Origin: Cytobacillus sp. NCCP-133
GTDB lineage: Bacteria > Bacillota > Bacilli > Bacillales > Cytobacillaceae
Direction of reading: 5' to 3'
Assembly (NCBI RefSeq): GCF_026011715.1
Contig: NZ_BRVM01000002.1
Location: forward strand, 1-64,000
Length of the DNA stretch: 64,000 bases
Shown here piece after piece: positions 18,079 to 54,242 of this stretch (its first letter is position 1; the number at the start of each line of letters is the position of its first letter). The notes under the pieces were generated by a model, which saw only the letters and a program-made list of their open reading frames with translations, ran no database searches and had not been told where the DNA came from. The position numbers were made by a program, and so were the translations under genes.

Positions 18079-18957
18079 ATGGATATTCTAAAAAAAATTG
18101 AGATGTTTCGACATGAAGAGGAAAAGCTTAAATGGGAAGGGACTTTTGGAGAGTATCTAGAAATTGTTAAAGAGAAGCCATGGGTTGCCCAGTCAGCACA
18201 TTCTCGGGTATATAGCATGATCAAAGATGCAGGTGTGGAAGAAGTGAAGGGGCAAAAAAGATATCAGTTTTTCAGCAATCAGCTGTTTGGACTTGAAGAA
18301 GCACTTGAAAGGCTTGTAGAGGAATATTTCCATCCAGCAGCTAAACGCCTGGATGTCCGAAAAAGGATTCTTTTACTAATGGGGCCGGTCAGCGGCGGTA
18401 AATCAACATTAGTGACGATGTTAAAAAGAGGTTTGGAACAATATTCCCATAGTGATAGGGGAGCGGTCTATGCCATTAAGGGATGCCCGATGCATGAAGA
18501 CCCGCTTCATTTAATCCCGCATCATCTCCGCAAAGATTTTTATGATGAGTATGGAATTAGAATTGAAGGGAATTTATCGCCACTAAATAGTATGAGGCTA
18601 GAACAGGAGTATGGCGGCCGCATTGAAGATGTTTTGGTTGAAAGAGTTATTTTTTCTGAGGACCGAAGGGTGGGAATTGGAACGTTCAGCCCTTCAGATC
18701 CAAAGTCTCAGGATATTGCTGATCTGACAGGAAGCATTGACTTTTCAACCATTGCTGAATATGGTTCTGAATCAGATCCGCGCGCCTATCGTTTCGATGG
18801 GGAACTGAATAAAGCAAACCGCGGAATGATGGAATTCCAGGAAATGCTGAAGTGTGATGAGAAGTTTTTATGGCATTTACTTTCCCTAACACAGGAAGGC
18901 AACTTTAAAGCTGGACGTTTCGCCTTGATTTCTGCAGATGAATTTGTGGTAACTTGA
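18079..18957 (+). pseudogene. prkA: prkA 5' part, interrupted by prophage
   Basis: Codes for the first 287 residues of serine protein kinase PrkA (starts MDILKKIEMF), then five phage-derived codons and a stop. PrkA has an N-terminal AAA+ domain: Walker A GPVSGGKST is at residues 102-110. ATG 18079 follows GGGGGAGGT. The gene stops at ...GRFALISADE, exactly where the family continues DELIVAHTNETEY; that continuation is found at 53208. PrkA is a sporulation kinase/AAA protein of the mother cell. This fragment alone would lack the kinase-like C-terminal half. The break is caused by site-specific integration, not decay: both halves are otherwise intact. Confidence 0.95.
18938..18941 (+). other. 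attL core (prophage left end)
   Basis: ATGA, shared with attR at 53206-53209. To its left is host prkA; to its right ATTTGTGGTAACTTGATAAC then CTACTAAAA (18961-18969). The symmetric centre of the reconstructed attP arms falls on the GA at 18940-18941, the likely crossover dinucleotide (inference). Confidence 0.8.
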
Positions 18958-18960
18958 TAA

Positions 18961-18969
18961 CTACTAAAA
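18961..18969 (+). repeat. attP right arm repeat CTACTAAAA
   Basis: Inverted partner of TTTTAGTAG at 53180-53188; in the excised circle the two flank the core with a 40-base interval. The identical pair also lies before the recombinase gene (20621 and 20649). Confidence 0.75.
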
Positions 18970-18980
18970 GTATATTTAAA

Positions 18981-19010
18981 AGAACTCCCCTTTATGACAA
19001 AGAGGAGTTA
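18981..19010 (-). terminator. Terminator of the recombinase gene
   Basis: Read leftward, AACTCCTCTTT/AAAGGGGAGTT-type hairpin followed by CTTTTAAA; it overlaps the recombinase stop codon and lies between that gene and attL. Confidence 0.7.
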
Positions 19011-20608
19011 AAAAATATCTTAGGGTTAAACATAACATTTAGATCGAATGTTCCCTTTCCCGTTTTAGTGAGAACAATGTAATCAAAAATTCCACGAAGT
19101 AATTCATTCTTCTCTGTTTTATTTAATTCTTCATTTTTATAAACCTCAAGCAAGTCTTTTATTCCAGTCTGGATATCTTCAATGTTTATTTCCTCAATAC
19201 GATCTTTTTCTAAATCGGCTTGTATTTCTTCTAATAGGGTTTGTTTTTCATCCATTTGGTTTAAAACTTTTTCTTTAAGTCTATCGTAATCTTCCTTATT
19301 AAGTTCACCTTCTGCTCTCATTAATTGAATACCATCTAATTGTTTTTTAGACCTTGTTAATTCTTCCTTTAGTTTTTCAATTTGGTCTTCTGGATTAATC
19401 TTACTAGCATTAAGTTTATCAAAATCAATTAGTTCTTGGAGCCTTTCCTTCAATCTGTCTTGGTCAACCTCAATAACTTCACTTAGAAGTAACTGAATAA
19501 TAGACTTTTCAATATCCCAGTATTTTATATATACAGCACAAGGTAAGCACATCATAAATTCTTTTTTATAAATACTTTTCGTTCCGTCCTTCTTTGTGTA
19601 ATGTTGTGTACTGTATTGTCTAACCATTTTCTTTCCACAAGAAGAACAGATTATTAAACCAGCCAATACATTAGGTTCAAATTCGAGTTTGACAGATGGT
19701 TTATTCCTATTTTCTACCAGTTGCTCCTGTGCAGTCTGCCATATTTCACTGGTGACTATTGGTTCGAAGCAATCTGGAACAATAATTTGCTCTTCTGGAG
19801 GGACATCATGAATTTCACCATATTTCTTCTCTGTCATATGATACCTATACTCGCCTTTATACACTGGGTTAGAGAGGATAGTTCGAATTACTTTTGGAGA
19901 CCAATACTGTTTTCCTGTTTTGGTAGGTATGTTTTCTTTTCTTAAGATAGTACTTATCCCGTTATATCCTATTTTATCAATTACATAATGGTAGTATATC
20001 TTCTTTACAATAGGTGCTTGTTCATCATTAGGTATTAACTTTTGGGTATAACTGTCAAAGTCATAACCATAAGGAACGGCCTGACTACCTCCCATAAATC
20101 GCCCTTGACGAGCATATGAGTATTTCGCCTCCTTCATTCTTTGTTTAATCATATCTAATTCTAGATTACCCATAAACATATAGAACTTCAGGATTTGAAC
20201 ATGATGACTATTTAGTGGATCATACACTTGATATGGGGTAATAATATAGATGCATTTTCTTTGGAGTAATTTTAAAACCATACCCATTTGGTCTGGATCT
20301 CCACGTCCTAAACGGCTAATATCTTTAACTGCAATAGCAGCCTTTCTACTTCCTACATTCTTAAGTTCCTCCAAAAGAGACGAAAATCTAGGACGACTTG
20401 CTATTTCGTCTCCTCCTGATTGAATCTCCTCCCTCATAGAGTAAGGGATACCTTCTTCTTCTTGTATTTCTTTTAACATACCACCAATTAATTCTCTTTG
20501 TGCTGCTAGAGTATCTTGGTTTGTCTTCTTCTCACGGAGCATATCTTGACGGGAACGACGAATATATCCATAGATAAACTCAATAGTTTGTGGAATCTCC
20601 CTCTTCAT
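18992..20608 (-). CDS. Large serine recombinase (phage integrase/excisionase)
   Basis: 538 residues. The N-terminal resolvase domain has catalytic Ser19 in YGYIRRSRQD, ISRLGRGD and QILKFYMFMGNLELDMIKQR (long helix E). The central recombinase domain includes GGSQAVPYGYDF and YYHYVIDKIGYNGISTIL. A zinc-ribbon domain follows with CSSCGKKM and, after a linker, CLPC (about residues 330-370). A long coiled coil (EDQIEKLKEELTRSKKQL onward) follows. This is the standard large-serine-recombinase order. It should catalyse attP x attB integration on its own and excision with a directionality factor. ATG 20608 follows AAAAAAGGAGAATAAT. Its 3' end is 50 bases from attL, the usual place. Confidence 0.96.
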   Translation of the reverse strand: MKREIPQTIEFIYGYIRRSRQDMLREKKTNQDTLAAQRELIGGMLKEIQEEEGIPYSMREEIQSGGDEIASRPRFSSLLEELKNVGSRKAAIAVKDISRLGRGDPDQMGMVLKLLQRKCIYIITPYQVYDPLNSHHVQILKFYMFMGNLELDMIKQRMKEAKYSYARQGRFMGGSQAVPYGYDFDSYTQKLIPNDEQAPIVKKIYYHYVIDKIGYNGISTILRKENIPTKTGKQYWSPKVIRTILSNPVYKGEYRYHMTEKKYGEIHDVPPEEQIIVPDCFEPIVTSEIWQTAQEQLVENRNKPSVKLEFEPNVLAGLIICSSCGKKMVRQYSTQHYTKKDGTKSIYKKEFMMCLPCAVYIKYWDIEKSIIQLLLSEVIEVDQDRLKERLQELIDFDKLNASKINPEDQIEKLKEELTRSKKQLDGIQLMRAEGELNKEDYDRLKEKVLNQMDEKQTLLEEIQADLEKDRIEEINIEDIQTGIKDLLEVYKNEELNKTEKNELLRGIFDYIVLTKTGKGTFDLNVMFNPKIFFNSSLS

Positions 20609-20620
20609 ATTATTCTCCTT

Positions 20621-20657
20621 TTTTAGTAGATGTTATATATCTAGTATACTACTAAAA
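20621..20657. promoter_or_regulatory. Inverted repeat in the recombinase promoter region
   Basis: TTTTAGTAG (20621-20629) and CTACTAAAA (20649-20657), a perfect 9-bp inverted repeat with 19 bases between, starting 12 bases upstream of the recombinase start codon. Both halves are identical to the attP arms. It includes a -10-like TATACT on the minus strand. It is probably an operator bound by the recombinase itself or by its partner (inference). Confidence 0.7.
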
Positions 20658-21203: not shown

Positions 21204-22199
21204 TTGTTATATCGTTTTATAGATTTATTCGCAGGTATCGGGGGCATAAGAACAGCCTTTGAGCCTTACGGGGAGTGTGTTTTTTCTTGTGAATGGGACT
21301 TAAAAGCACAAGAAACATATTTCGCTAATTTTGGCGAAAAACCAGTTGGCGATATCCGTGCAGTAGACGAAAAAGAAATACCTGACCACAACATATTGCT
21401 GGCAGGTTTCCCATGTCAGCCGTTTAGTATTGCAGGAGTAAGTAAGAAGAATAGTTTAGGAAGAGAACACGGTTTCCTTGATGAAACACAAGGGACTTTA
21501 TTCTTTGATATTGCACGTATTATCAAAGAGAAGCAGCCAGAGGCTTTCTTATTAGAGAATGTTAAGAACCTAAAAAGTCATGATAAAGGTAAAACATTTA
21601 AAGTAATAAAGAATGTATTAGAAGAATTAGGTTATACGGTATATACGGAGGTTCTAAATGCCAAAGGTCTTGTGCCTCAAAATAGAGAACGTATCTATAT
21701 TGTAGGCTTTAAGAAACCATTGAAGTTTGAGTTTCCAGAAATACCTAAAGAGGGTCCACCGTTGAGATCTATCCTTGAAGAAGAGGTTGATGATGTATTT
21801 ACATTGTCAGATAAGTTATGGCAGTACTTACAGGATTATAAAGAAAAACATAGCAAGAAGGGTAATGGTTTTGGCTTTGGTTTAGCAGATTTAGATTCAT
21901 ATTCTAGAACGTTGTCTGCTCGTTACTATAAAGATGGTAGTGAGATTCTAATTCCTCAAGGTGAAGGAAAAAATCCAAGAAGATTGACCCCTAGAGAATG
22001 TGCACGCTTGCAGGGATTTCCAGAAACGTTTAAGATTGTAGTATCGAGAACCGCTGCTTGGAAGCAGTTTGGAAATTCAGTAGCAGTTCCTGTCGTTTCT
22101 TTGATTGCTGAGCGAATGGTTCAAGCACTCGAACGAAACGAACTACTACCACTGGAAGAGGGTCAATTGGAGTATGCAACAGTCGGAAAAATTAACTAG
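21204..22199 (+). CDS. DNA (cytosine-5) methyltransferase of an EcoRII-like system
   Basis: 331 residues from TTG 21204 (GGGGAGG eight bases upstream). C5-methyltransferase motifs in order: motif I DLFAGIGG (residues 7-14), motif [10 protein letters not shown] with catalytic Cys, motif VI LENVKNL, motif [15 protein letters not shown], motif [13 protein letters not shown] and [16 protein letters not shown], motif [11 protein letters not shown]. It protects phage and host DNA against the nuclease encoded by the next gene, which it overlaps by 26 bases. Target is predicted to be CCWGG or a close variant because the partner is EcoRII-like; the exact site is inference. Confidence 0.95.
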
Positions 22200-23346
22200 T
22201 TTAATAGAGGCGACCAGTAGGACTGGTCGCTTTTATTGTAAGTTCATCACCGCAAATGATGCAGATTTAACAGGAGCCCACCAAGTGGGACTGCATATTG
22301 CTAAACCGGCATGGAATATCTTCTTTGAAGAGGAAGGGGTTAAAGGGGAAAATAAAGATAAGTATGTAAAAATACATATTGACGGTTACTATCCTTTTGA
22401 GAGCCGCGCAATCTATTACGGAAGAGGAACAAGGAACGAATATAGATTAACTCGTTTCTGGTCTAATTCACCTTTTGACAAAACAGAGCAAGTCGGAAAT
22501 CTTATTGTATTTTTGCCAATGTCTGAAGAGGATTTCAAAGTATATATCCTAGATACAGACGAAGAGATTGAAGACTTTACTGACCACTTTTCATTAAACT
22601 TAATGAACAACAATGCAGTCTATGATGGTGGGAGAGTTTCAGATATTGACCTCTCAAGAAGGTTAGAAGAGGAAATAGAATATGCAGTATCACAGTTTGA
22701 TGATTTTCCTATGACTGCTGATATGGCAGATCTTGCACGAAGAATACACCATGAAGTTTATAGAAGGAAACCATTCACACCTGACCTAATTTTACTTGAA
22801 TGGGTAAAAACTGAATACATTACATTTAAAGCATTAGAAAGAAATCTATATCAAGAGTATTTAACAACACCATTCGGAGAAGTAGATCCGCTTGTTGCTG
22901 TAGCCAATACTATCTTAAATAGAAGAAAAAGCAGAGCAGGTAAATCATTAGAGCATCATGTTGATTACTTATTTTCTTCTTTTAATCTACCATTCTCACA
23001 TCCCGGTAGGAGTGAGGGAAATAAGAAACCAGACTTCTTACTCCCTTCTAATAGAGCCTATGCAGATATGACCTTCCCTGAAACAGATTTAATCTTTTTA
23101 GGAGCAAAGACAACCTGCAAAGATAGATGGCGTCAGATTCTAAATGAGGCAAACAGAATACCAGAAAAGCACTTGCTAACACTACAACAAGGGATATCCC
23201 CGAACCAGTTGGACGAAATGGAAGAGGAAAGAGTAACACTAGTTGTACCTAAGCCTTACCATTCACTTTATCCAGAGCAATATAGAGATCGCTTATGGAC
23301 GGTTGAAAAGTTCATTGGATATGCTGAAGAAAAATACTCAATCTAA
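22174..23346 (+). CDS. EcoRII-like type II restriction endonuclease
   Basis: 390 residues, close to EcoRII (404). The N-terminal effector-binding domain shows [18 protein letters not shown] and [20 protein letters not shown], close to the EcoRII N domain. The C-terminal nuclease domain shows [20 protein letters not shown] then [20 protein letters not shown]; Lys312 and Lys316 have the spacing of the EcoRII catalytic lysines. This two-domain form suggests a type IIE enzyme that needs a second site for activation. ATG 22174 is the only start before the conserved region with TTGGAG upstream; the frame extends further into the methyltransferase gene. A terminator-like hairpin lies inside the 5' coding part (22210). 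Confidence 0.9.
22210..22236 (+). terminator. Terminator-like hairpin inside the endonuclease gene
   Basis: Perfect 9-bp stem GCGACCAGT/ACTGGTCGC with loop AGG followed by TTTTATT, 11 bases after the methyltransferase stop and 36 bases into the endonuclease frame. It would end most transcripts after the methyltransferase and so keep endonuclease low. Confidence 0.7.
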
Positions 23347-24889: not shown

Positions 24890-26449
24890 ATGACAATTTC
24901 AAAAATAACATCACATAATGTAAATACCACTTCAAAGGAATATATCGACGCTTTAATTGAAGCATCAAGAAAGAAAAAACAACCAGACACTATGATTGAC
25001 GAGGATATCTTTGAGGAAGATATTCCCGCTACTCAAATAAAAGAAAAGAAAGAAACAAAAAAAGCAGTTAAGAAAGAGGCTGGATTTAATGCTAAACAAG
25101 AAAAAGTTGTTTCTTACATTGCTCCATTCATTAAAGAAGGAAAGTTTGGTCCATATGTACATAGAGGACTCTTAGCAGAATATCTAATTACTGAAATTCC
25201 TGCCATCAACTCTGCTGGTCAACTTTATATCTATGAGAATGGTGTGTATCGTCTGGCGATACCAAAAGAGGAACAAGGGATAGTTAAGAAGTTATTAACT
25301 CCAGAGTTCTCAACAATGCCAATTATCAACGATGTTACACAACAATGGATGATTGATGAAAGAGTTAATAAGTCCACTGGAGAACTTAATGATAATCTCT
25401 ACAAGTTAAATCTTCTCAATGGATATATCAATTTAAAGAACGAAAAAGGGGAGTTAGTAAAGTCAGTTAATGATTTGAAACTTGAGGATCATACACCAGA
25501 TTACTTATCTACTATTCAAGTTCAAGCAAACTTCTCTAAGGAAGCAAAAGGAGAGCATTTCCTTAAATTCCTTGATAGTTCTGTACCAGACAAGAAAATG
25601 CAAATGCTGCTACAAGAAATGGTTGGTTACTCTTTAACAGGACTAACAGATTCCAAAAAGATGATTTTTATCTTTGACGGACCGGGTGATAGTGGTAAAT
25701 CAACATTCATTAATGCAACCCTTGAAAACCTACTTTCCGAGAATGCAAAGTCTCACGTAGAACTTCAGGAGTTAGGGGATAACGAATACAAGCAGGCTGA
25801 ACTCTTTGAGAAGGTAGTTAATATCTATGCTGATTTACCAAGTAAGGGTATTCAAGATATTGGTTATTTAAAGGCTGCTTCTGGTAACGACTGGATTACT
25901 GCCCGTCGTATCTATGGTCACCCATTCCAATTCAAGAATAAAGCAAAGTTTGTATTCTCCACAAACGGAATGCCTGCTAATTACAGCAAAGATACTAGCG
26001 ACGCTTTTTATAATCGCTTAACTATTATCCCTTTCAAACAAGTACCTAAGAAGAAGGACTTAACTTTAAAGGATAAACTGTTCAATGAGAAGGATTTTAT
26101 TTTCATGTGGGCTCTTGAAGGCTTACTACGTTTGGTGAACAACGGCTTCAAGTTCTCTGAAAGCGAAGTTGCTGACCAATTAATCCAAGACTACAAACAA
26201 GAAAACAATCCAGTAATGAGATTTGTTAATGAGGCTTGTGAGTTCGGAGAATACACCATTGCCCGTGCTTCTCTATATGCTGAATATGAAAACTTCTGTA
26301 AACTAAATGGTCATAACCCATTAAGTGCTATCAAGTTCAATAAAGAGTTAGAGAAGGCTTATCCAGAACTTCAGAAGAAACAACTTAGTGATGCAAGAAG
26401 AACTAAGGCTTGGGTTGGTATCCGAGTGCTAGACTTTATGGATATTTAA
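24890..26449 (+). CDS. Phage primase-helicase (P4/D5 type, SF3 helicase)
   Basis: 519 residues. C-terminal superfamily-3 helicase: Walker A GPGDSGKST at residues 264-272, Walker B-like VVNIYADLPS, and sensor-1 region AKFVFSTNGMP. A D5/P4-like region precedes it (LYKLNLLNGYINLKNEKGEL). The N-terminal 75 residues are charged and could hold DNA-binding function; a clear primase zinc motif was not seen, so priming activity is uncertain. ATG 24890 follows AAAAGGAGGAG. It is followed by a terminator and then by the iteron region it probably recognises. Confidence 0.88.
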   Translation: MTISKITSHNVNTTSKEYIDALIEASRKKKQPDTMIDEDIFEEDIPATQIKEKKETKKAVKKEAGFNAKQEKVVSYIAPFIKEGKFGPYVHRGLLAEYLITEIPAINSAGQLYIYENGVYRLAIPKEEQGIVKKLLTPEFSTMPIINDVTQQWMIDERVNKSTGELNDNLYKLNLLNGYINLKNEKGELVKSVNDLKLEDHTPDYLSTIQVQANFSKEAKGEHFLKFLDSSVPDKKMQMLLQEMVGYSLTGLTDSKKMIFIFDGPGDSGKSTFINATLENLLSENAKSHVELQELGDNEYKQAELFEKVVNIYADLPSKGIQDIGYLKAASGNDWITARRIYGHPFQFKNKAKFVFSTNGMPANYSKDTSDAFYNRLTIIPFKQVPKKKDLTLKDKLFNEKDFIFMWALEGLLRLVNNGFKFSESEVADQLIQDYKQENNPVMRFVNEACEFGEYTIARASLYAEYENFCKLNGHNPLSAIKFNKELEKAYPELQKKQLSDARRTKAWVGIRVLDFMDI

Positions 26450-33364: not shown

Positions 33365-33931
33365 ATGGCTAAAAAGAAGGAGACCTACAAGGATCACCTC
33401 AATAAGACGGTGGCAGAAATCCTAGCGATGGAACGTAGGAAGAGACGGCTACCTGCTATGGCAGTGTATCTAAATAACTTTGATATGTCCGTGCAGGATG
33501 TGGCTGAACTTCTGGATATACCAGAGGGAACAGCAAAGGACTGGTCAAGCAAGGACGAATGGCATAAGACCAGAGAAGAAATAAAAGAAAATATAAAAAA
33601 TAAAATGAAAGTATCAGCAGAGACCGAGCATGTTCAACTATACGGAATTATCCTTTCTAACCTACTTCATAAGTTTATGGAGGCTTCAATGAATCCTAAT
33701 GTGAAGGTTATGGATATAAGGGATATGAAATTCCTTGCTGAAGCATTAGAGAAGAATTATAAAATTCTTGGTTTATTGAATGTTATTGAAGAGCCTGTTC
33801 AGAAGGTTGAACATAGTGGGGAGGTAACTCAAAACCATAATGTTTCAGAGTATGAAAGAAAACTAGATAAGTTTAATAGTATGCTAGGTATCATCTCTAA
33901 GCCGAAAGACGGTGAGGAGAATGGAGAATAA
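33365..33931 (+). CDS. terS: Terminase small subunit
   Basis: 188 residues, ATG 33365 after AAAGGAGGGG. An N-terminal DNA-binding helix-turn-helix (FDMSVQDVAELLDIPEGTAK), a helical central part and a charged C-terminus are typical of TerS. It recognises the packaging site and brings DNA to the large subunit encoded next, with an 11-base overlap. Confidence 0.8.
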   Translation: MAKKKETYKDHLNKTVAEILAMERRKRRLPAMAVYLNNFDMSVQDVAELLDIPEGTAKDWSSKDEWHKTREEIKENIKNKMKVSAETEHVQLYGIILSNLLHKFMEASMNPNVKVMDIRDMKFLAEALEKNYKILGLLNVIEEPVQKVEHSGEVTQNHNVSEYERKLDKFNSMLGIISKPKDGEENGE

Positions 33932-35228: not shown

Positions 35229-35246
35229 GGAAGGGAGGTTTTAAGT

Positions 35247-37806: not shown

Positions 37807-37809
37807 AGT

Positions 37810-38769: not shown

Positions 38770-38787
38770 GAGAGGAGAGGATAGGAT

Positions 38788-39744
38788 ATGAATACTAATA
38801 GTTTAATTGCAAATGTTTTAAAATCTATTACCGTTCAAGGTTTGGCCGCTGGTATTTTATTACCAGAAAAGTTTAATAAATTCGTAGACGAAATGCAGGA
38901 GGATGCAACTGTCCTTGCTAAATCTCGTTTAATGACAATGAATAGCCCTAAGTTACAAATTGACCGTATTTCTTTAGTAGGTCGTGTATTACGTGCAGGT
39001 GCTATCAATGGTGTTCACAATGTTTTAAGTGAGGATCAATATGCTGAATACAATACAGCAATGAATGAACTTATCGCTCGTGAGTTCCAAGCAACCACTT
39101 CTATTTATGACAATGCTCTACGTAGCAACATTGAGAAGACTGCTCTTGAAGGACATATTCTTCAATTGTTAGGTCGTGCTGCTGGTGTTGACTTTGAAGA
39201 ACTTGCTTTCTTCGGTGATAAGTCTAGTTCTGATACTTTCCTTAACCAAACTGACGGATGGATTAAGAAAGGTAAGAATAAAATTTATGGAGCAGGTACT
39301 ACTCCTGACTTTGATAAGGAGACTTCAACTGCTATCTTCAAATCATTGAAGGCTGCTTATCCAAAGCCATACTTAACTAAGCGTAAAGACAAGTTAGCGT
39401 TCCTTGTTTCTTACGAAGTTGAGGAAAACTACCGTGACGAATTGAAAGCACGTCCAACTACTCTAGGAGATCAAACTCTTGTGAATAGCAACCAGTTAGC
39501 ATATGACGGTATCCCTGTTATTTATGTTCCTGTGTTTGAGCGTTCTGCTATTGGTCGTGTTGCTATGTTAGTAGATTTCGACAACCTTGTATATGGTATC
39601 TTCCATGAGGTTACTGTTGAGCCTAGCCGTAAAGCAGAAGAAAGAAAAACAAACTTTGTTCTTACTATGGAAGGCGACGTTCATTATGAGAACGAAAATG
39701 TAGTAGCAATTGCATTGTTAGACCAAGCAAAACCTACTGCTTAG
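38788..39744 (+). CDS. Major capsid protein
   Basis: 318 residues, ATG 38788 after AGAGAGGAGAGG. Sequence includes KFNKFVDEMQEDATVLAKSR, MNSPKLQIDRISLVGRVLRA and VEPSRKAEERKTNFVLTMEG, matching the major-capsid type seen after XkdF-like proteases. Codon use is more biased than in neighbours, as expected for an abundant protein. Expected HK97-like fold. Confidence 0.85.
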   Translation: MNTNSLIANVLKSITVQGLAAGILLPEKFNKFVDEMQEDATVLAKSRLMTMNSPKLQIDRISLVGRVLRAGAINGVHNVLSEDQYAEYNTAMNELIAREFQATTSIYDNALRSNIEKTALEGHILQLLGRAAGVDFEELAFFGDKSSSDTFLNQTDGWIKKGKNKIYGAGTTPDFDKETSTAIFKSLKAAYPKPYLTKRKDKLAFLVSYEVEENYRDELKARPTTLGDQTLVNSNQLAYDGIPVIYVPVFERSAIGRVAMLVDFDNLVYGIFHEVTVEPSRKAEERKTNFVLTMEGDVHYENENVVAIALLDQAKPTA

Positions 39745-39800
39745 GGATTAGGAGTTAATTCTCTTAATCTCTTTTTAATTTAAAGAAGGAGGGATGACGA

Positions 39801-39998
39801 ATGGGTAAAAAATTCAAAGTCACCAACCTTACCAAACAAGTAGTTCGCAGAGGAGGAAAAGTATTCCTCCCTCTTGCTACTGTTGAGGTTGAACTTTTTA
39901 AATACCAAGAGGCAGAAGTTAAAGCCTGTGTTGATTTACATGTAGAAGAGATCAAGGCAGTAAAGAAAACCTCTAAGTCTAAAGAGGGTGATAATTAA
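39801..39998 (+). CDS. Small head/neck protein
   Basis: 65 residues, ATG 39801 after AAGAAGGAGGGATG. Basic N-terminus MGKKFKVTNLTKQVVRRGGK, beta-rich, Lys-rich end. Position between capsid and connector genes suggests a decoration or head-completion role; not recognised by sequence. Stop overlaps the next start (TAATG). Confidence 0.7.
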   Translation: MGKKFKVTNLTKQVVRRGGKVFLPLATVEVELFKYQEAEVKACVDLHVEEIKAVKKTSKSKEGDN

Positions 39999-40447
39999 TG
40001 CCACATATTGAAGAAAGAACAGTACTGTATTATTCCTCTGTTAAGGAGGTTATATTTTACACTGGTGTTCGATTTGACGATTTTAGTTTAGAGAATAAAC
40101 AAGAACTAATTGATTTACTTGGAGAATGGCTCATTGAGGCAAAGGATTATATAGATACATACATATCCCGAAATTTACAAAAGGAATTAGAGATTGGAAA
40201 GATTACAAATATACCCCCTCGCATTCATGACATTGCTACTCGCATTGTAGCCAATAAAGTGGCTCAAGCCGTTGCTCGTAGAACTACCCCCCTTGCAACT
40301 AAGGACAGTGTTCCCACTATTACTTTATCAGACAACATATTCACAGATTCTATAAAACAAGATTTAGACCAATTCATTGTTAATACTTCAAAGCCTACTT
40401 TAAGAATAAGTAGAGCAAGAAGTAAAACAGAAAGAAATGTGTGGTAA
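39998..40447 (+). CDS. Head-tail connector protein
   Basis: 149 residues. Helical region LIDLLGEWLIEAKDYIDTYI followed by IHDIATRIVANKVAQAVARR resembles gp6/gp15-type connectors. Start overlaps the previous stop codon. Builds the neck ring under the portal. Confidence 0.72.
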   Translation: MPHIEERTVLYYSSVKEVIFYTGVRFDDFSLENKQELIDLLGEWLIEAKDYIDTYISRNLQKELEIGKITNIPPRIHDIATRIVANKVAQAVARRTTPLATKDSVPTITLSDNIFTDSIKQDLDQFIVNTSKPTLRISRARSKTERNVW

Positions 40448-40449
40448 TC

Positions 40450-40884
40450 ATGCCTATCAATTTTGAAGGATTTAGTGTGCAAGATTTTGAGGGTTTAACA
40501 AGTGATACAAGAAAAACGGTAAGCAAAGCACTAGAATATACGGCAGAGGATATCTTCGCCAATATCAAGAGGGAAGCACCCGTAGATCATGGGAGGCTTG
40601 CTGGTTCTTTTCAGTTAAAGAAACTCAATGACTTACAATTTCAGATTTATTCTCAGGTAGAATACATTTGGTTTGTTCACGAAGGGACTGGTATCTATGG
40701 TCCACATAATACTCCAATTAAACCTGTTACTTCTCCAGTACTTCGATTCATGATTAATGGAAGATGGATAAGTAAGAAGGAAGTTAAAGGTCAAAAAGGT
40801 AATCCGTTTATGGATAGGGCTTTCGATAAGACGGAAACCAGATTGCAGGAATTTATTATCCGTGCAATTCAAGAAACCACATAG
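40450..40884 (+). CDS. HK97 gp10-like neck/tail protein
   Basis: 144 residues from ATG 40450. Family signature: EDIFANIKREAPVDHGRLAG, YSQVEYIWFVHEGTGIYGPH, and the C-terminal GNPFMDRAFDKTETRLQEFI. Gp10-like proteins join head to tail. No strong ribosome site; coupled to the upstream stop, which lies 3 bases before. Confidence 0.85.
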   Translation: MPINFEGFSVQDFEGLTSDTRKTVSKALEYTAEDIFANIKREAPVDHGRLAGSFQLKKLNDLQFQIYSQVEYIWFVHEGTGIYGPHNTPIKPVTSPVLRFMINGRWISKKEVKGQKGNPFMDRAFDKTETRLQEFIIRAIQETT

Positions 40885-40899
40885 TAGGAGGTGTTGGTA

Positions 40900-41367
40900 A
40901 TGATAGCAAATAAAGCCGCTATACCTTTAAGGTTAGCACTGGAAGAAATACAAGAAAAAATAAAGTCAATCCTTGAACAAGAGACTTTACCTGAAGGATA
41001 CCTTCAAGATGTTGAAACAGTGATACGTGGAGATCGTGCTAGACCAAAACCAGCAACTCCTGTTATTTGGTTATTTACTAATTCTGTTTCACCAGAAGGT
41101 AAGACTTTGGGATTAACCCAAGATAATGGTTTTTCAATAACCTTATCAGTAGTTTATAAAAATGACGACCCTTCAAAGGGATTTTCAATGGCGTCAGATA
41201 TTGCCTTAAGGGCAAGAGAAGTGATTTTAAGGGATAGAAAACTAGGGCTTGATTATGTATCAGATATAAAGGATATAAACACTACCCTATCCAATCCTGC
41301 AATGGCTAATGGAAACTTATACAATGCAGAATGGATGTTTTCCGTAAAGTTCACTTCCAAAAATTAG
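40900..41367 (+). CDS. Tail completion/terminator protein
   Basis: 155 residues, ATG 40900 after TAGGAGGTGTTGGTA. Beta-rich middle (NGFSITLSVVYKNDD) and a C-terminal LYNAEWMFSVKFTSK. Position between gp10-like and major tail protein is that of the tail terminator in siphoviruses. Assignment mainly by order. Confidence 0.65.
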   Translation: MIANKAAIPLRLALEEIQEKIKSILEQETLPEGYLQDVETVIRGDRARPKPATPVIWLFTNSVSPEGKTLGLTQDNGFSITLSVVYKNDDPSKGFSMASDIALRAREVILRDRKLGLDYVSDIKDINTTLSNPAMANGNLYNAEWMFSVKFTSKN

Positions 41368-41383
41368 AGAGGAGGAAATATAT

Positions 41384-42361
41384 ATGTCTAATATTTGTCG
41401 ATATGTAGGTTTATCAAAAGAAACAAGTTATAACATGGCAAGTAATCCACCTGAAGCAAAACATCACATTGATATCGCTTCTTCTAGTATGGATATAACT
41501 AGTGATAAGTTTATTGAAGTACCAACTGGATTAAATAGAACACTTAAACAAACAAGAGAAGGGTTTTCTTCAGCAGGTGGAAACATTGTCTATCCTTTAG
41601 ACGTTAATACTATTCCATTCGTTTTAGGAATGGCTCTTGGCGAGTATCAATATACTCAAGGCTTAACAGTAGAGGACTTTAATACATTTGAGTTTTGGAG
41701 AACCAAAGATTCTCTATTACCTTCATTTGTTTCCCGTATAGGTAAAGACTTATTTGAACATATCTTTACTGGTTGTGTGGCTGAGGGTTTTGATATTGCA
41801 GTATCAGATGTTATTACTGCAACTGTCAATGTAGTAGCAGCACAAGGTCAAAAGACTGCAATTAAATCTGAAGAGGCTTTAAACCTTTTCAAACAATATC
41901 CATTAGCATTTCACGAAGTAACAGCAATGTATGACGGAGTGGATAAGTCCAACCTCATTAAAGATTTTTCTTTATCTTTTTCAAACGGTGTAAGTGTAGA
42001 TACGGTAAAAACAATTGGGTCTAAGCATCCTACTTCTACACCAGTATCTGGTCGTGGGAGTGCAACGGTATCTACTAATCTCAAGTTTGTAGGAACTGAA
42101 GAAATCGAAAAGTATGAAAACGGAACTATCTTTAAAGTTGAATACTTCTTTGATAATGGTGCAGACGGTTTTATCCATATTATCCTACCTGCAGTTCAAT
42201 ACACTTCTGTCCCTACTACTGTTAGTGGTCAAGACGAGATTGTGCAAGGAACTGCATTTAAGGCTTTAGAGGGAACGGTAACATTAGCAAACGGTACAAC
42301 TGTAAATACAGATATTTTTGTAAAAGTATCTAACAAACTAGGAGAGGAGGAGATTTTCTAA
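41384..42361 (+). CDS. Major tail (tube) protein
   Basis: 325 residues, ATG 41384 after AGAGAGGAGG. Beta-rich; repeated substrate is the tail tube. The C-terminal 100 residues look like a bacterial Ig-like extension (GTVTLANGTTVNTDIFVKVS). Stop overlaps the next start (TAATG). Confidence 0.75.
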   Translation: MSNICRYVGLSKETSYNMASNPPEAKHHIDIASSSMDITSDKFIEVPTGLNRTLKQTREGFSSAGGNIVYPLDVNTIPFVLGMALGEYQYTQGLTVEDFNTFEFWRTKDSLLPSFVSRIGKDLFEHIFTGCVAEGFDIAVSDVITATVNVVAAQGQKTAIKSEEALNLFKQYPLAFHEVTAMYDGVDKSNLIKDFSLSFSNGVSVDTVKTIGSKHPTSTPVSGRGSATVSTNLKFVGTEEIEKYENGTIFKVEYFFDNGADGFIHIILPAVQYTSVPTTVSGQDEIVQGTAFKALEGTVTLANGTTVNTDIFVKVSNKLGEEEIF

Positions 42362-42792
42362 TGAACTTAAGAAGTTTAGTAATTAACGGCACGGATCATG
42401 TAGAGGAACATACTTTTGAGGTAAATGGTGGTGAGGTTACAGTGGCAATTCGTCCACTATCTGACGGTGAAATCCACCGTATCAACACTACTCAACAAGA
42501 AGCGAATGTAATTAAAGGTAATCCTGTTACTAAGAAGTTTGAGAATGTGGTTTCTATTAGTAAACAATTAGAGGCTAAGTATAAGGGGGACCTTTTAACT
42601 TGTGAATTAGGTATTGTAGATACACCTAAATGGACACAAGAAGATTTGAAGAAATTACCTGCTGGTTTACCTTCAGCGATTGCTCAAAAAATCCTTGAGA
42701 TTTCTGGAGCGACTAAAAAGAAAGAAGATAGCAAGGTTGAAGAGAACAACGAGGTGGTTCAACAATTAGAATCCTTTCGTGAAAACAACTGA
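42361..42792 (+). CDS. Tail assembly chaperone (G-type)
   Basis: 143 residues. Positioned between tail tube and tape measure as in lambda G. Its last codons read TTT CGT GAA AAC AAC TGA; a second frame (to 43012) opens exactly across this end, suggesting a frameshifted G-T fusion. Confidence 0.75.
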   Translation: MNLRSLVINGTDHVEEHTFEVNGGEVTVAIRPLSDGEIHRINTTQQEANVIKGNPVTKKFENVVSISKQLEAKYKGDLLTCELGIVDTPKWTQEDLKKLPAGLPSAIAQKILEISGATKKKEDSKVEENNEVVQQLESFRENN

Positions 42793-43012
42793 AGGTAAGA
42801 ATATTATTCGGCTACATAATATGGGATACCCTTTGGCAAGCAGTCAGAAAGACCTGACTCTTATCCAGAGGGTTTTTCTTGTTATGGGGGCTAATCAAGA
42901 GAATGAAGACCAGAAGAAGGCTATGGATAAATCCAAGCAGTCTAAAGGTTCCGCTTCTCAAGCAGACGTAGATTATGTCACTCAAAAGGCACGCGAAAGG
43001 AGGGGACAATAA
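42779..43012 (+). CDS. Tail assembly chaperone extension (T-type), probably by frameshift
   Basis: Frame +1 relative to the upstream gene; the upstream limit in this frame is a TAG at 42767. A GTG at 42779 exists but has no ribosome site, so a shift (+1, e.g. at TTT C, or -2) within 42770-42792 is more likely. Product is about 77 residues, charged, ending VTQKARERRGQ. The tape measure gene overlaps its stop. Confidence 0.65.
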   Translation: MKTTEGKNIIRLHNMGYPLASSQKDLTLIQRVFLVMGANQENEDQKKAMDKSKQSKGSASQADVDYVTQKARERRGQ

Positions 43013-44946
43013 TGGATGCTGTAATGGATATTTTAGTTCAAGCCCAAGACGAAGCCTCCTCTGTAATTGAGCAGATAGGCGATGTTGGTGTTGAAGCCGC
43101 TCGTGAGTTAGAACGAGCAATGGAGCAAGCAGGAGACGCAATGGATTCCATTGGGGATGATGCAAGAGAAGCAATGCAACAAGTAGAAAGGGCAACTGAA
43201 GATGCAGAAGCCGCTCTTGACGACTTAGCAGATGCAGCCGAACAAGCAGGGGAAGATATGGAAGCCGCTGCTCAAGAACAAAAAGAGGCTATGCAAAGTG
43301 TTGTTGAAGGTATAGGTATGGCAGGAGCCGCTATGACTGCATTTGCTGAAGTCCAACAAGAATCAATAGTTAAAATGGAGAAGTTTGCTCTTCTAACTGG
43401 TATGTCTAAAGACAGTGTTTCTGACCTTGTTGATTCTATTTCCGACGCTTCCTTTAATTTAGAATCTACTGTTCTAGTTTTAGAAAAAGGAAGAAAAGAA
43501 GGATTAAAAAGTGAGGAACAATTGAAGCGATATGCTGAAGGTTGGAAGACAGTAGCAAAAGCAACAGGTTTAGAAGCAGAAGAACTTTTGGAGTTTGCTC
43601 CAATCCTTGATCGTGCCAATGCAAGTTTAGCAGATAGCACAGAGGCTATGGACGCATTCGGTTGGGTAACTTCCAACACAACTTCAAGTGTCCCTGAATT
43701 TATGGATGCCGTAGCAGGTTCAATGATGGATATTGGAGATGCCGAGATTAAATTAAATCAAATGGCCGCTGCTTTAAAAATTGTTGAAGAAATGTATGGT
43801 GTAACTGGTCCAGAAGCAATAGCAGTATTTCAGGGTAAAATTGGAGAGGCCGCAGGTGCTGTTGACGAGAACGGTAATGAGTTAGGTTGGAGTATGGAAA
43901 CCTTTGCCGATGCAATAGGTACAACTACTGAAGAAATCAACAAATTAGCAGAAGGTGTTGAAGGCTCTGGTAAGACTATGGAGGACTTAGCAAAAATCAC
44001 TGACGAAAATGCTTCTATGTTTGACAAGTTAATGGCTAAGGTTGGAGACTTCACTGCTCAACACGGAGATGCGATACAAGTAATGGGTTCAATGGGAACT
44101 ATCATGTCTGGATTAACTCCTATTATTCTTCTTGCTATGAACGCAACTGCAATTTGGACAACTGTTACTGCTGCCGCTACTGGAGTAGGTGCTGCCTTTG
44201 GGGCTGTAATGGCTTTTATAACTAGCCCTGCTATGTTAGTAGTAGCCGCAATTGCCGCTATTATTGCAATAGGTTATCTACTTATCAAACATTGGGATAC
44301 TGTCAAAGAGGTAGCCGCTGCTGTTTGGGACGGTATAGTTACTATTCTAGAAGCAGCATGGGAAGGAATTAAGAAGGGTGCAGAAATTGCTTTCAAGGTT
44401 CTCACATGGCAATGGCAATTAATGTATTTCGTTATTAAGAAAGCCATTGAGTGGATTATGGAAATCGGTCCTAAAATGTGGGAAGGTATCAAGAACGGTG
44501 CAAAGGCCGCTTTTGATTTTGTAAAAGGAATATGGACTGGAATGGGAGAGTTCTTCAAAAATCTATTTGAAGGAGTAGTTGCCTTCCTAAAAGCACCATT
44601 TAACTTTGCAATTGACGGAGTAAATATGTTAATCAATGCACTTAATAAAATTAATATTAAAATTCCAGACTGGGTTCCGCTTCTTGGTGGTAAAGATTTC
44701 GGCTTTGATATTCCTAATATCCCACGTCTCCACACTGGAGGTATCTTCCACGCTCCTAACGGATTAGAGGAAGGCTATGCTTTACTCAAAGAAGGGGAAA
44801 TGGTTGTAGACCCTATGCAAACAAGAAGAATGACAAGTGAAGGAGATGGCGAATCGTATACGTTCATCATTGAGTTAGACGGAAAGGTTCTTGCTAAATC
44901 CACTGGTAAACATTTACCGAAATATTTAAAACTGAGAGGAGTGTGA
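43012..44946 (+). CDS. Tail tape measure protein
   Basis: 644 residues. Long acidic coiled-coil start (Ala/Glu/Asp-rich to about residue 100), central hydrophobic segments (about 355-425, AIIAIGYLLIKHWDTV), and a Trp-rich segment KHWDTVKEVAAAVWDGIVTI typical of tape measures. C-terminal HTGGIFHAPNGLEEGYALLK, a common tape-measure end. Sets tail length: 644 residues predict a tail near 95-100 nm at about 1.5 angstrom per residue. ATG overlaps the preceding stop. Confidence 0.93.
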   Translation: MDAVMDILVQAQDEASSVIEQIGDVGVEAARELERAMEQAGDAMDSIGDDAREAMQQVERATEDAEAALDDLADAAEQAGEDMEAAAQEQKEAMQSVVEGIGMAGAAMTAFAEVQQESIVKMEKFALLTGMSKDSVSDLVDSISDASFNLESTVLVLEKGRKEGLKSEEQLKRYAEGWKTVAKATGLEAEELLEFAPILDRANASLADSTEAMDAFGWVTSNTTSSVPEFMDAVAGSMMDIGDAEIKLNQMAAALKIVEEMYGVTGPEAIAVFQGKIGEAAGAVDENGNELGWSMETFADAIGTTTEEINKLAEGVEGSGKTMEDLAKITDENASMFDKLMAKVGDFTAQHGDAIQVMGSMGTIMSGLTPIILLAMNATAIWTTVTAAATGVGAAFGAVMAFITSPAMLVVAAIAAIIAIGYLLIKHWDTVKEVAAAVWDGIVTILEAAWEGIKKGAEIAFKVLTWQWQLMYFVIKKAIEWIMEIGPKMWEGIKNGAKAAFDFVKGIWTGMGEFFKNLFEGVVAFLKAPFNFAIDGVNMLINALNKINIKIPDWVPLLGGKDFGFDIPNIPRLHTGGIFHAPNGLEEGYALLKEGEMVVDPMQTRRMTSEGDGESYTFIIELDGKVLAKSTGKHLPKYLKLRGV

Positions 44947-44953
44947 TGTCGGT

Positions 44954-46654
44954 ATGTTGCAAGTTTTCATTGACGGTAATGAAGTTGATGTTCAGGCTGG
45001 CTCCCTTAGTTGGGAAAGAAACACTACCGATTTCGACAACCTCTCTTTTAATATATTTACCTTTCGGGAAAAGGATTTCTTTGAAGAAGGTCAAGAAGTA
45101 GAATTGTACAACAATGGTAAATTACAATTCGGTGGTGAAATCCTAACTGTTGGAGAATCTGGAGCAAGGAATAATTACTTAGTCCATCGCATTGACTGTG
45201 TAGGACATGAGAAGTTATTAGAAAATAGAACAATAGCAAAGGCTTACGAACTGGAATACAGTGGGGATATTATAGCCTATATGTCTAATGATATTCTCTT
45301 CAATGAGGGTATTCAGCCCGGTGTAATTGAAAGGGGTTTATTACTTAATGAAGTGAGATTTGGATATATCAGTTGTTTACAGGCTATCCAATCTCTTGCT
45401 GAACGATCAAACTACTGGTTTCGTATAGACCAATTTAAGAAATTACATTTTAGAAGTAAATCAGGATATCCTTCTCCATTTCCTCTACGTTGGGATAATG
45501 TCATTTCTGATAGTCTTAATGTAGAAAAAGGAAATTCAGAATATAGAAACACTCAATACTTGCTAGGCAGTCAAGCCGTCACAAGTGAGAGGACTGAAGA
45601 AAAGAAAGGAAATGGAACAAATACGGAATTTATCATTGGTTTTCCTTTAGCAAAGAAACCTAAGATTTATGTGAGTAGAAATGGTGGACCATTTGAAGAG
45701 CAAACTGTTGGACCAAAGGGAGTTGTGGACACGGGCTACGACTTTTTTGTTGCTCTTGAAGACAATGTAATTGTACAGGATAAGATAGGAACCCCCCTTA
45801 CAGAAACAGATGTAATCCGAATTGTTTATCAAGGCTTTTACAATATAGTTGTAAAGAGCCAAATAAACTATGAGATTAATAAAAGAAATCAAAAAGGAAG
45901 GGGAACGGGGATTGTTGAAAGAGTGGAGACTGCTTCGTATAGAGGAGAGGGTGCTGCTCGTCAAGCAAACCTTCAAATCCTGAACAAATATGCAACTCAA
46001 GATTGCTTTGTCATTACATATGAGACTGAATTAGACGGTCTTGAACCGGGTATGATGCAACCTGTCCATTTACCAGAACATAACATTACAAATGTTGAAG
46101 GATTAATCACTTCTATTTCAGCAAGTGATGATAATGGAGTATTAGTTTATTCTGTTCGTTGTGTTCGTGGTCCAGTAGACCAAGATTGGACTGCTTTCTT
46201 CTCTAAACCTAAAAGAGATGTTGATACAAATATTATAGAAGGTGACGAATTGATACAGCCTGTCTATTCATATGAGAAGACTTGGACACAAGGAGAGTTT
46301 CCTAACCTATTCGCTACTGGTGTATATCCAAGTAATACTACATTTCCTTCTTCAACCTTATATCCTTCATTAAGCCCAAGTCAGAAGATTAAATTTCTGG
46401 CTTATTTTATTGGAGACGTAGAGGCTGGAAGAATACCTATTACTCAACAAGATATTAAAAGTGATTCAGTATTCACTATTTGTCTAATGGGCTTTGACGT
46501 GGAAGGAGTAATCACGAAACTTGCATGGGTTGGAGGCTATTCTGCTACTGAACAACTCGGAACAGGGATATACCTTGATATCCAAAATGTAAATCTAATA
46601 AAAACCGATATGGAAATCTTCCAGATTGAGAAGATTGATAGGAAGGGGTGGTAA
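44954..46654 (+). CDS. Tail tip / baseplate hub protein
   Basis: 566 residues, ATG 44954. N-terminal IDGNEVDVQAGSLSWERNTT and a beta-rich ring-like domain (EGQEVELYNNGKLQFGGEIL), then IQSLAERSNYWFRIDQFKKL. Matches the order of tail-associated hub proteins after the tape measure. No separate Dit-type gene is seen, so both roles may be in this protein. Confidence 0.75.
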   Translation: MLQVFIDGNEVDVQAGSLSWERNTTDFDNLSFNIFTFREKDFFEEGQEVELYNNGKLQFGGEILTVGESGARNNYLVHRIDCVGHEKLLENRTIAKAYELEYSGDIIAYMSNDILFNEGIQPGVIERGLLLNEVRFGYISCLQAIQSLAERSNYWFRIDQFKKLHFRSKSGYPSPFPLRWDNVISDSLNVEKGNSEYRNTQYLLGSQAVTSERTEEKKGNGTNTEFIIGFPLAKKPKIYVSRNGGPFEEQTVGPKGVVDTGYDFFVALEDNVIVQDKIGTPLTETDVIRIVYQGFYNIVVKSQINYEINKRNQKGRGTGIVERVETASYRGEGAARQANLQILNKYATQDCFVITYETELDGLEPGMMQPVHLPEHNITNVEGLITSISASDDNGVLVYSVRCVRGPVDQDWTAFFSKPKRDVDTNIIEGDELIQPVYSYEKTWTQGEFPNLFATGVYPSNTTFPSSTLYPSLSPSQKIKFLAYFIGDVEAGRIPITQQDIKSDSVFTICLMGFDVEGVITKLAWVGGYSATEQLGTGIYLDIQNVNLIKTDMEIFQIEKIDRKGW

Positions 46655-49564: not shown

Positions 49565-50398
49565 ATGAGTAAATTGATTGCAATTGACGCAGGACACGAA
49601 TATAACACTGCAGGTAAAAGAACTCCAAAGTTTGATAACGGAGACTTTATGCACGAATGGGAATTTAACTATGCTGTTGCTATTGAGTTAGAAAAAATCC
49701 TTAAGAGATGTGGATTCAGAACATTAAATGTAAATCCAGATAAGAGTGAGACTTCTCTTGCTCAACGTGTAAGTAAAGCGAATACAGCAGGTGCTGATTT
49801 CTATATTAGTATCCATGCAAATGCTCTTACTGGTAAATGGGGAAATGCAAAAGGAATTGAAACTTTCGTATGGCCTTCTAAAAATGGAAGTAGCGAAAAA
49901 ATTGGCCGCTTAATTCATAAACACCTTATGACTGGAACAAATATGGTTGATCGTGGAGTAAAGGACGGCTCTTGGTTATATGTAATTAAGCACACAAAGA
50001 TGCCAAGTGTCCTTGTAGAATGTGGATTTATGGATAATCTTAGAGAGGCTAAACTCCTTATGAGTAGTTCATACCGTCAAGAATGTGCAGTAGAGATTGC
50101 GAAGGGTATTTGTGAGGGTTTCGGAGTGAAATATGTATCTGAACCTGTAAATAAAGAAACACCAAAACCTGCTCCTTCTCCAAAGAAAGAGAGCAATAAA
50201 GGAGTAAAGATTATCTGTTCTGCTCTTTGGACATATAACTCCAAAGATTGGAATGATAAAGCCGTTATAGTTCATAAAGACGAAGTATTCACAATCATCT
50301 CTGACAAAATCAAAGTTGATGGAGGATATATGTATCAAATCAAGAGTGGTTTATATATCACTGCTAGTTCTAAATATGTTCAAGTAGTTAACCTTTAA
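49565..50398 (+). CDS. Endolysin, N-acetylmuramoyl-L-alanine amidase
   Basis: 277 residues, ATG 49565 after GAAAGGAGAGGATA. N-terminal Amidase_3 domain with zinc ligands in DAGHEYNT, HEWEFNYAVAIELEKIL, ISIHANAL and catalytic Glu in VLVECGFMDN. C-terminal about 85 residues after a Pro/Lys linker (PKPAPSPKKESNKG) form a beta-rich wall-binding part. Cleaves peptide from glycan at lysis. Confidence 0.95.
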   Translation: MSKLIAIDAGHEYNTAGKRTPKFDNGDFMHEWEFNYAVAIELEKILKRCGFRTLNVNPDKSETSLAQRVSKANTAGADFYISIHANALTGKWGNAKGIETFVWPSKNGSSEKIGRLIHKHLMTGTNMVDRGVKDGSWLYVIKHTKMPSVLVECGFMDNLREAKLLMSSSYRQECAVEIAKGICEGFGVKYVSEPVNKETPKPAPSPKKESNKGVKIICSALWTYNSKDWNDKAVIVHKDEVFTIISDKIKVDGGYMYQIKSGLYITASSKYVQVVNL

Positions 50399-50791: not shown

Positions 50792-50797
50792 CACTTT

Positions 50798-52780: not shown

Positions 52781-52841
52781 CAGAAAAATCTGAGGGAGCA
52801 GTAAATATTCAACAGGGAGGTATATGACTGGAGGAAGTCAT

Positions 52842-53093
52842 ATGCTAAACAGAAAGGAAAAATTACAGTTAAATTCAAAGGGACCCGCTCATAGACTTAA
52901 TAAAAAGAATATGGGAGGGAAACCTTTGGAGAGCCTTCAAACGGAACAACCAGTAAAACAGATTGAGGGCAAATTCGGAGCAATCAACATACTAGTACCT
53001 GACCGAGAAGTTTCAGCAACAGACGAAGATATCCATTCACTCATTGCTCGTATTCTTTTAATGAAACAAAAACGCTTAGCCACTAGAGAATAA
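52842..53093 (+). CDS. Small basic phage protein next to attR
   Basis: 83 residues from ATG 52842 (TGGAGGAA six bases upstream; ATG 52824 is in frame but only 3 bases from its site). Starts MLNRKEKLQLNSKGPAHRLN, basic; then acidic helix DEDIHSLIARILLMKQKRLA. Last phage gene before attR; candidate directionality factor by location and size only. Confidence 0.65.
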   Translation: MLNRKEKLQLNSKGPAHRLNKKNMGGKPLESLQTEQPVKQIEGKFGAINILVPDREVSATDEDIHSLIARILLMKQKRLATRE

Positions 53094-53113: not shown

Positions 53114-53136
53114 ATTAAAAATCTGTTATAAATGTA

Positions 53137-53165
53137 TTGACAAAACATTTTATAAGGGTTTGATA
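53137..53165 (+). promoter_or_regulatory. Sigma-A-type promoter at the right end pointing outward
   Basis: TTGACA, 17-base spacer, TTGATA (or GATAAT at 19). Lies between the last phage terminator and attR, so it points into the 3' part of prkA in the lysogen. Consensus -35 is perfect, -10 is moderate. Confidence 0.45.
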
Positions 53166-53179
53166 ATAAGATTTTTCTA

Positions 53180-53188
53180 TTTTAGTAG
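53180..53188 (+). repeat. attP left arm repeat TTTTAGTAG
   Basis: Inverted partner of CTACTAAAA at 18961; 17 bases before the ATGA core on this side, 19 on the other. Pairing extends imperfectly (TTTTAGTAG-A/T-TAT). Confidence 0.75.
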
Positions 53189-53205
53189 ATATGATAGCAC
53201 TGCGA

Positions 53206-53209
53206 ATGA
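53206..53209 (+). other. attR core (prophage right end)
   Basis: ATGA shared with attL at 18938-18941; left of it is phage sequence CACTGCGA, right of it host prkA sequence GCTAATTGTC. Phase: codon GAG at 53208 matches the interrupted codon at 18940. Confidence 0.8.
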
Positions 53210-54242
53210 GCTAATTGTCGCTCATACAAATGAAACGGAGTATCGTTCATTCATTTCCAATAAGAAAAACGAAGCTTTGCATTCCAGGATTATTGTCATG
53301 CCAGTTCCTTATAATCTAAAAGTTTCAGAGGAAGAAAAAATTTATGAAAAAATGATCCGTGAAAGTGATGTTTCGGATGTGCATATTGCGCCGCATACTT
53401 TAAGGGTTGCAGCGATGTTTACGATCTTAACCCGTCTAAAGGATCCGAAAAAAGGTGATATTGACTTAGTTAAGAAGATGAGACTGTATGATGGTGAAAG
53501 CGTTGAAGGATACAATAGAACGGACGTGGATGAATTGAAGAAAGAGCATTCAGATGAAGGCATGAGCGGAATTGATCCGCGTTATGTCATCAACCGGATT
53601 TCTTCAACAATCATACGCAAAAATATCACAAGCATCAATGCACTGGATGTATTGCGTTCCTTAAAGGAAGGTTTGGATCAGCACCCATCCATTACTTCGG
53701 AACTAAAAGAAAGATACCTGAATTTTATTTCCTTGGCTCGCAAAGAGTATGATGATATTGCGAAGAAAGAAGTCCAGAAGGCGTTTGTCTATTCATACGA
53801 GGAGTCTGCGAAGACGCTTATGGAAAACTATCTGGATAATGTCGAGGCTTACTGCAATAAGGCGAAGCTTCGTGATCCATTAACCGGTGAAGAGATCAGT
53901 CCGGACGAGAAGCTAATGCGTTCCATCGAGGAACAAATCGGCATTTCGGAAAATGCGAAGAAAGCATTCCGTGAGGAGATTCTTATCCGTATTTCAGCTT
54001 ACGCAAGAAAAGGAAAGCGGTTTGATTACAATTCACATGACCGCTTACGTGAGGCTATACAAAAGAAGCTGTTTGCTGACTTGAAAGATGTCGTCAAGAT
54101 TACAACATCCTCCAAGACTCCAGATGAGCAGCAGCTGAAGAAGGTTAATGAGGTTGTAGCAAGATTAATAGATGAGCATGGCTATAATTCAACCTCGGCA
54201 AATGAATTGCTGAGGTATGTGGGAAGCCTGCTGAATCGTTAA
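53208..54242 (+). pseudogene. prkA: prkA 3' part, interrupted by prophage
   Basis: 344 codons of the C-terminal part of PrkA, beginning ELIVAHTNETEYRSFI, including IIVMPVPYNLKVSEEEKIYE, DVHIAPHTLRVAAMFTILTR and the PKA-like C-terminal region with SIEEQIGISENAKKAFREEI. Without excision there is no start codon with a good ribosome site; the first in-frame ATG is 53298. The upstream frame to 53100 is phage sequence. Joined to the left part it gives 631 codons with no missing or extra residue. Followed by a host terminator. Confidence 0.95.

Follow-up and report, generated by a model that had tools for sequence, protein, structure and literature searches.

In Bacillus subtilis, the prophage SPbeta interrupts spsM, a sigma-K gene; SprA and SprB are reported to be necessary and sufficient for its excision in sporulation, sprB being switched on through a mother-cell promoter or, by another route, after DNA damage (PMC4191935). 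The skin element in sigK is described as a serine recombinase (SpoIVCA) element in a mother-cell gene, likewise removed in sporulation (PMC10747680), and published listings add the prophage-like or non-phage elements vfbin in spoVFB, gin in gerE and yin in yabG (PMC10747680, PMC5595907). The published host genes are sigK, spsM, spoVFB, gerE and yabG (PMC10747680). Here we analyzed 64,000 nucleotides of Cytobacillus sp. NCCP-133 (the window; contig NZ_BRVM01000002.1, positions 1 to 64,000; genome of 4.3 Mb in 62 contigs), in which a 34,268-bp prophage separates the two halves of prkA. This prophage appears to carry an excision module of the SPbeta type, and we consider it probable that it is excised from prkA in the sporulating mother cell. 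In full-text searches that covered few subscription papers and neither supplements nor preprints, we recognized no report of prkA in this role, and prkA is absent from the main text of an integrase survey (PMC10083194).

The prkA frame is cut after codon 287 (last 5' base 18939) and runs into a stop at 18955-18957; it resumes in phase at 53208 and continues for 345 codons including the stop (Table 1). Fusing the flanks by script gave a single frame of 631 codons. The break, the in-phase resumption with both parts open, and the sum of 287 + 344 uninterrupted codons had all been described in an initial sequence-only reading of the locus, and each was borne out. Note that the automatic core choice gave 630 codons and the next-best core 631. 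Pfam placed AAA_PrkA at 2-278 of the 5' part; in the 3' part, it continued this domain at 273-357 and also recognized the C-terminal domain of PrkA. No second PrkA above the family cut-off was found in the strain's own genome, where the three matches were the two parts and one match below the cut-off. The predicted junction of the rebuilt gene (attB), for use in read searches, is TCTGCAGATGAGCTAATTGT. Since prkA is also split, with other cargo, in Cytobacillus gottheilii FJAT-2394 (G010), the split in the window is no assembly artefact.

Compared with the nearest relative, the ratio of non-synonymous to synonymous substitution rates (dN/dS) of prkA was 0.029 (5') and 0.010 (3') in the window and 0.007 (5') and 0.016 (3') in G010; unsplit pairs with finite values ranged from 0 to 0.031 (28 sequences; G246 was left out for length). 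Both parts in the window are under purifying selection, and no decay was seen. A fixed, dead insertion with permanent loss of PrkA would have the interruption itself in its favor and nothing else. Against it stand an intact integrase, intact att sites and phage genes, two undamaged prkA halves and a 3' part that shows no relaxed selection, and we give this possibility next to no weight.

The prophage encodes a large serine integrase whose stop at 18992 lies 50 bases inside attL, as had been noted. An inactive recombinase would speak against excision, but by sequence the enzyme is intact: the 538-residue frame is open, contains resolvase and recombinase domains, and retains serine 19 and the zinc cysteines. 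Serine integrases need little identity in the att core, and here the identity common to both att sites is ATGA only (18938-18941 and 53206-53209). Read from the two element ends, attP is flanked by TTTTAGTAG and CTACTAAAA, which are inverted repeats. The 9-mer of these arms recurs in the integrase promoter, giving four copies in the window (two attP arms, two in the promoter); at least four were found in 3 of 100 shuffles. The promoter repeat is also kept in G010. Binding there may let the integrase control its own expression.

Among 50,697 phage records, the best named matches of the integrase were SPbeta and its kin (SPBc2 YokA: 32.7% identity, query coverage 98%, E 4e-68), and the only PDB sequences at E <=0.001 were the SPbeta integrase and its YotN fusion. 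Single-sequence integrase searches of genome contigs and viral contigs gave no match; alignment-based searches succeeded. When 397 Bacillales genomes were searched with seven integrases from the window's insertion codon (site A; three candidates scored per genome), nine matches reached E <=1e-150, the rest being at E 4e-94 or weaker. Six of these nine lie in prkA and three are SprA orthologues (70-76% identity); the one orthologue that was scanned lies inside a Polysacc_synt_2 gene adjoining a SelR-domain gene, a pair that we take to be spsM and msrB. A tree of 37 integrases places SprA among those of prkA, along with two that sit at an AIM24-family gene. Going by the starred branches, the target changed at least twice; the best tree requires three changes. 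We tentatively propose, at somewhat less than even chances, that prkA is a main home, perhaps the original one, of the SprA/SprB integrase group. This lineage would be specialized on sporulation genes, would have brought phages, islands of non-phage type and a near-minimal 4-kb element to a single codon across Bacillales, and would have switched to spsM later, in SPbeta. The tree root depends on long-branched outgroups, which makes prkA a candidate for the older target and no more.

Interruption of prkA recurs beyond this strain. In the genus (36 genomes), PrkA gave a single uninterrupted match in 33, the sister copies that the sequence-only reading had proposed to look for, was split in two (the window and G010), and gave no match in G008 (listed as 100% complete; loss or assembly gap). 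The window and G010 were also the only splits at family level (193 genomes) after follow-up of odd cases. At order level (397 genomes), eleven genomes with several PrkA pieces were followed up, yielding eight further splits: five at the window's codon (G295, G286, G381, G411 and G475, the last with its parts on two contigs) and three at a second site near residue 138-141 (site B; G228, G252 and G246). prkA is split in 9 of the 397 order genomes (8/396 without the window's own), and the window's codon is hit in six other Bacillales genomes overall (G010 and these five). The elements measure 34.3, 17.0, 35.8, 4.0, 14.5 and 42.9 kb at site A and 26.3, 20.5 and 45.8 kb at site B. Scripted removal restored 631 codons in all nine complete cases; for G246, the automatic core gave 626 codons and the next-best core 631, with a rebuilt junction that would read MQADP in place of MHEDP (by eye).

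The 17-kb G010 element shares the attP arms and the methyltransferase region with the window's prophage, and its integrase and right-end small protein are 46% and 45% identical to those of the window. Its scan matched a primase, a regulator, a restriction enzyme and an acetyltransferase, and no head, tail or packaging family among ten other proteins. Ten proteins from the 4-kb (three) and 14.5-kb (seven) elements likewise matched no virion family. G010, G286 and G381 show no virion-structure family among their scanned proteins, yet retain the integrase and the candidate directionality gene. Apparent splits were not counted in G067 (contig edge), G230 (a broken copy with an additional partial one beside it), G321 (frame interrupted close to its start), G244 (two complete copies), G179 and G051 (one 81% complete, both pieces at contig ends) and G061 and G062 (paralogues). 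Large serine recombinases (LSRs) near prkA in G137, G146 and G055 were rejected as prkA insertions, being at the 3' end of yhbH.

Related integrases were found on 29 IMG/VR contigs. On 7 of these, the integrase adjoins a prkA part that ends at residue 288-292; many others stop at the integrase, so that their site is unreadable. L120 is probably the same element as that of G411, judging from the shared match, leaving six further contigs. In L126 (7639-8100) and L130 (7585-8043), the prkA piece comprises residues 138-291 only and lies between two elements, preceded by foreign DNA whose right arm resembles that of the second site (GGGTTACTTATGGTATGCA vs GGGTTACTTACAGTATGCA in G246). From this arrangement, prkA appears to be cut at both sites at once. 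No site-B integrase was found in the examined parts of L126 and L130, where the left element runs off the contig.

The right end of the prophage holds genes for proteins of 78 and 89 residues, neither with a Pfam or PHROG match. A profile of the small proteins of the window, G010 and G295 retrieved that of G286 (E 0.0012) among 1955 open reading frames (ORFs) and, with G286 added, those of G381 (2.2e-4), G411 (0.003) and, weakly, G475 (0.35). The gene is near attR in the window, G010, G295, G411 and G475, immediately before the integrase in G286, and internal in G381. Of 20 IMG/VR records, 6 had a match to the seven-row profile: the gene lay next to the integrase in one of them and at the other end of the element in five. 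The annotated SprB of SPbeta occupies the same position, opposite its integrase. A family profile free of SprB scored four SprB proteins at 9.2-18.8 bits, equalled by 0, 1, 1 and 4 of 9985 shuffles, and ranked SprB best of 45 ORFs in the SPbeta right end. By these comparisons the small gene is probably homologous to SprB. A tblastn search of the phage records with the window's small protein gave no match, and a PDB profile search gave six matches (best E 1), none relevant. The AlphaFold model (mean pLDDT 62.7; first 34 residues unreliable; hairpin and long helix mostly 70-90) was excluded from the evidence. The strong RNA hairpin over the ribosome-binding site suggests translational control of the small gene. 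Inverted repeats before it are also present in G010 and G295 (by eye).

Upstream of prkA, a scan with the general sigma-E promoter consensus identified a -35 and a -10 element 14 bp apart (p 0.015 vs shuffles). The motif GCATGTT is found in 21 of 22 genus members, and GCATA at the same promoter place in 22 of 22 (alignment by eye). The B. subtilis prkA is reported to be transcribed by sigma-E, and its product to be located in the spore coat, to be required for full sporulation and to act on sigma-K; loss of prkA reduces sporulation (PMC4415436). The earlier proposals of a sigma-E-like promoter and of PrkA as a mother-cell sporulation protein therefore held, the latter through Pfam identity and transcription in B. 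subtilis. PrkA has also been linked to stress (PMC13001217), which would suit a regulated switch outside sporulation, the phage leaving and perhaps returning under vegetative stress and so toggling prkA. Given the sigma-E-type promoter conserved in the genus, restoration in vegetative cells would yield little product, and we consider such a switch very improbable.

The locus shares with described sporulation gene-intervening elements an interrupted gene of the mother-cell program (Pfam, promoter, PMC4415436), an intact site-specific recombinase of its own, and a reading frame that exact removal restores in silico. Likeness is closest to SPbeta: the integrases are related over their full length, integrase and SprB-type gene stand at opposite ends, and the host gene belongs to the mother cell. 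In contrast, SPbeta resides in spsM (sigma-K, PMC4191935) rather than prkA (sigma-E) and measures 134 kb, not 34 kb, and the terminase found here is not SPbeta-like in its ten best matches. The prophage has a probable SprA/SprB-related module, but neither the SPbeta-like virion genes nor the genome size of Spbetavirus. The skin, vfbin, gin and yin elements have other host genes, and LSRs in split sigK (G010, G148) fall outside the prkA/SprA group. Split sigK was seen in two of the ten prkA-split genomes (G010:C1:1583481-1611597; G286:C51:47010-127384) and in G148 (G148:C1:3922048-3960040); sigK is whole in the window's genome.

Given the relationship to SprA and SprB and the layout, SPbeta-like sporulation excision is expected here. 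The integrase alone would hold the prophage in place; an SprB-related factor would appear in the mother cell as it sporulates and, independently, when the phage is induced. With the factor present, the integrase would recombine attL with attR and a 34-kb circle would depart, restoring the 631-codon prkA under its sigma-E promoter in a cell without descendants, while the spore retains the prophage. The sequence itself shows the interruption, the in-phase junction, the att sites, the integrase relationship, a probable kinship of the small gene with SprB, and recurrence in other hosts; mother-cell excision, its trigger and the role of the small gene as directionality factor are inferred. The SprA-related integrase, the SprB-related gene, attP with its inverted repeats and a dozen other elements at the same codon lend support to the developmental excision first suggested by the sequence-only reading; the wider pattern of recurrence is stronger than the single case.

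Several points weigh against this. The relationship of the small gene to SprB is modest (hhalign E 2.3e-4, probability 44%). A sigma-E scan directly before the window's small gene gave p 0.825, no convincing mother-cell promoter, and was below 0.05 only in G381, one of seven site-A elements; as proven SprB itself scores only 0.29, the scan is weak both ways. The presence of SpoIVA in 10/10 prkA-split genomes and, among 14 control genomes, in B. subtilis only speaks for the mother-cell reading but discriminates little, because most Bacillales have sporulation genes. Decay may not yet be visible if the insertion is recent. Finally, the prophage looks complete, so that plain lytic excision would also explain an intact module. 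It might be an ordinary prophage whose attB is a conserved coding sequence, large serine integrases often lying within conserved genes (PMC10083194), and which leaves only upon lytic induction, its lysogens managing without PrkA; its virion, lysis and replication genes and the missing mother-cell promoter in the scan fit this. However, integrases of this group lie in prkA or spsM-type genes in 9/9 close cases, elements without recognized virion genes retain integrase and small gene, and prkA is open in every complete case. We therefore regard the ordinary prophage as unlikely, and excision in the mother cell as the better account.

Mother-cell excision would extend the published list (PMC10747680) by an early (sigma-E) host gene, the product of which reportedly acts on sigma-K. 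A programmed deletion would then precede the late mother-cell program. If prkA is a main home of the group, rearrangement of this developmental gene would be widespread, and some strains would have it in three pieces needing two excisions; contigs with prkA cut at two sites raise the question of excision order. Cargo of 4 to 43 kb at one codon provides natural replicates for which element parts selection keeps. FJAT-2394, with prkA and sigK both split, would allow the timing of two predicted deletions to be followed within a single cell.

Table 1. Features of the split prkA locus and its prophage (window positions).
Feature	Position	Strand	Basis
prkA promoter region, sigma-E type (-35 GCATGTT, -10 CATAGAGT), and ribosome-binding site	18012..18078	+	scan, genus alignment, general consensus
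prkA 5' part: 287 codons, 5 element-derived codons, stop	18079..18957	+	ORF reading, Pfam
attL: core ATGA and attP arm CTACTAAAA	18938..18969	.	end comparison
Large serine integrase, 538 aa, SprA-related	18992..20608	-	domain scan, phage-record and PDB comparisons
Inverted repeat TTTTAGTAG...CTACTAAAA in integrase promoter, 9-mer as in attP arms	20621..20657	.	repeat search
DNA methyltransferase and EcoRII-type restriction enzyme	21204..23346	+	domain scan
Primase-type replication protein	24890..26449	+	PHROGs scan
Packaging, head and tail genes (terminases, portal, head protease, structural protein, tape measure)	33365..46654	+	PHROGs scan
Endolysin (amidase)	49565..50398	+	PHROGs and Pfam
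RNA hairpin over ribosome-binding site and start of small gene	52819..52845	+	folding, z -5.3
SprB-related candidate directionality factor, 89 aa (83 aa from start 52842)	52824..53093	+	profile searches
attR: attP arm TTTTAGTAG and core ATGA	53180..53209	.	end comparison
prkA 3' part: 344 codons and stop, without own start	53208..54242	+	ORF reading, Pfam

The cargo was analyzed by scanning 40 prophage ORFs with PHROGs. Besides the genes in Table 1, the prophage carries a Holliday junction resolvase and a sigma-like regulator. The large terminase (33912-35228) is closest among phage records to methanogen phages psiM2 and psiM100 (~50% identity), its ten best matches being methanogen and Gordonia phages. 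A 99-aa gene adjoining the integrase (20786-21085) is kept in the G010 element and has no Pfam or PHROG match. ARAGORN predicted a tRNA-Ile (gat) inside the prophage (32483-32553).

The prkA-yhbH region is an integration hot spot, yhbH being the next gene after prkA. In the window, an IS110-type transposase (54709-55860) lies between prkA and yhbH (56779-57951), and another serine integrase group occupies the 3' end of yhbH, leaving the gene whole, in L038 (4231-5778), L039 (3894-5441), L031, L168 and L175.

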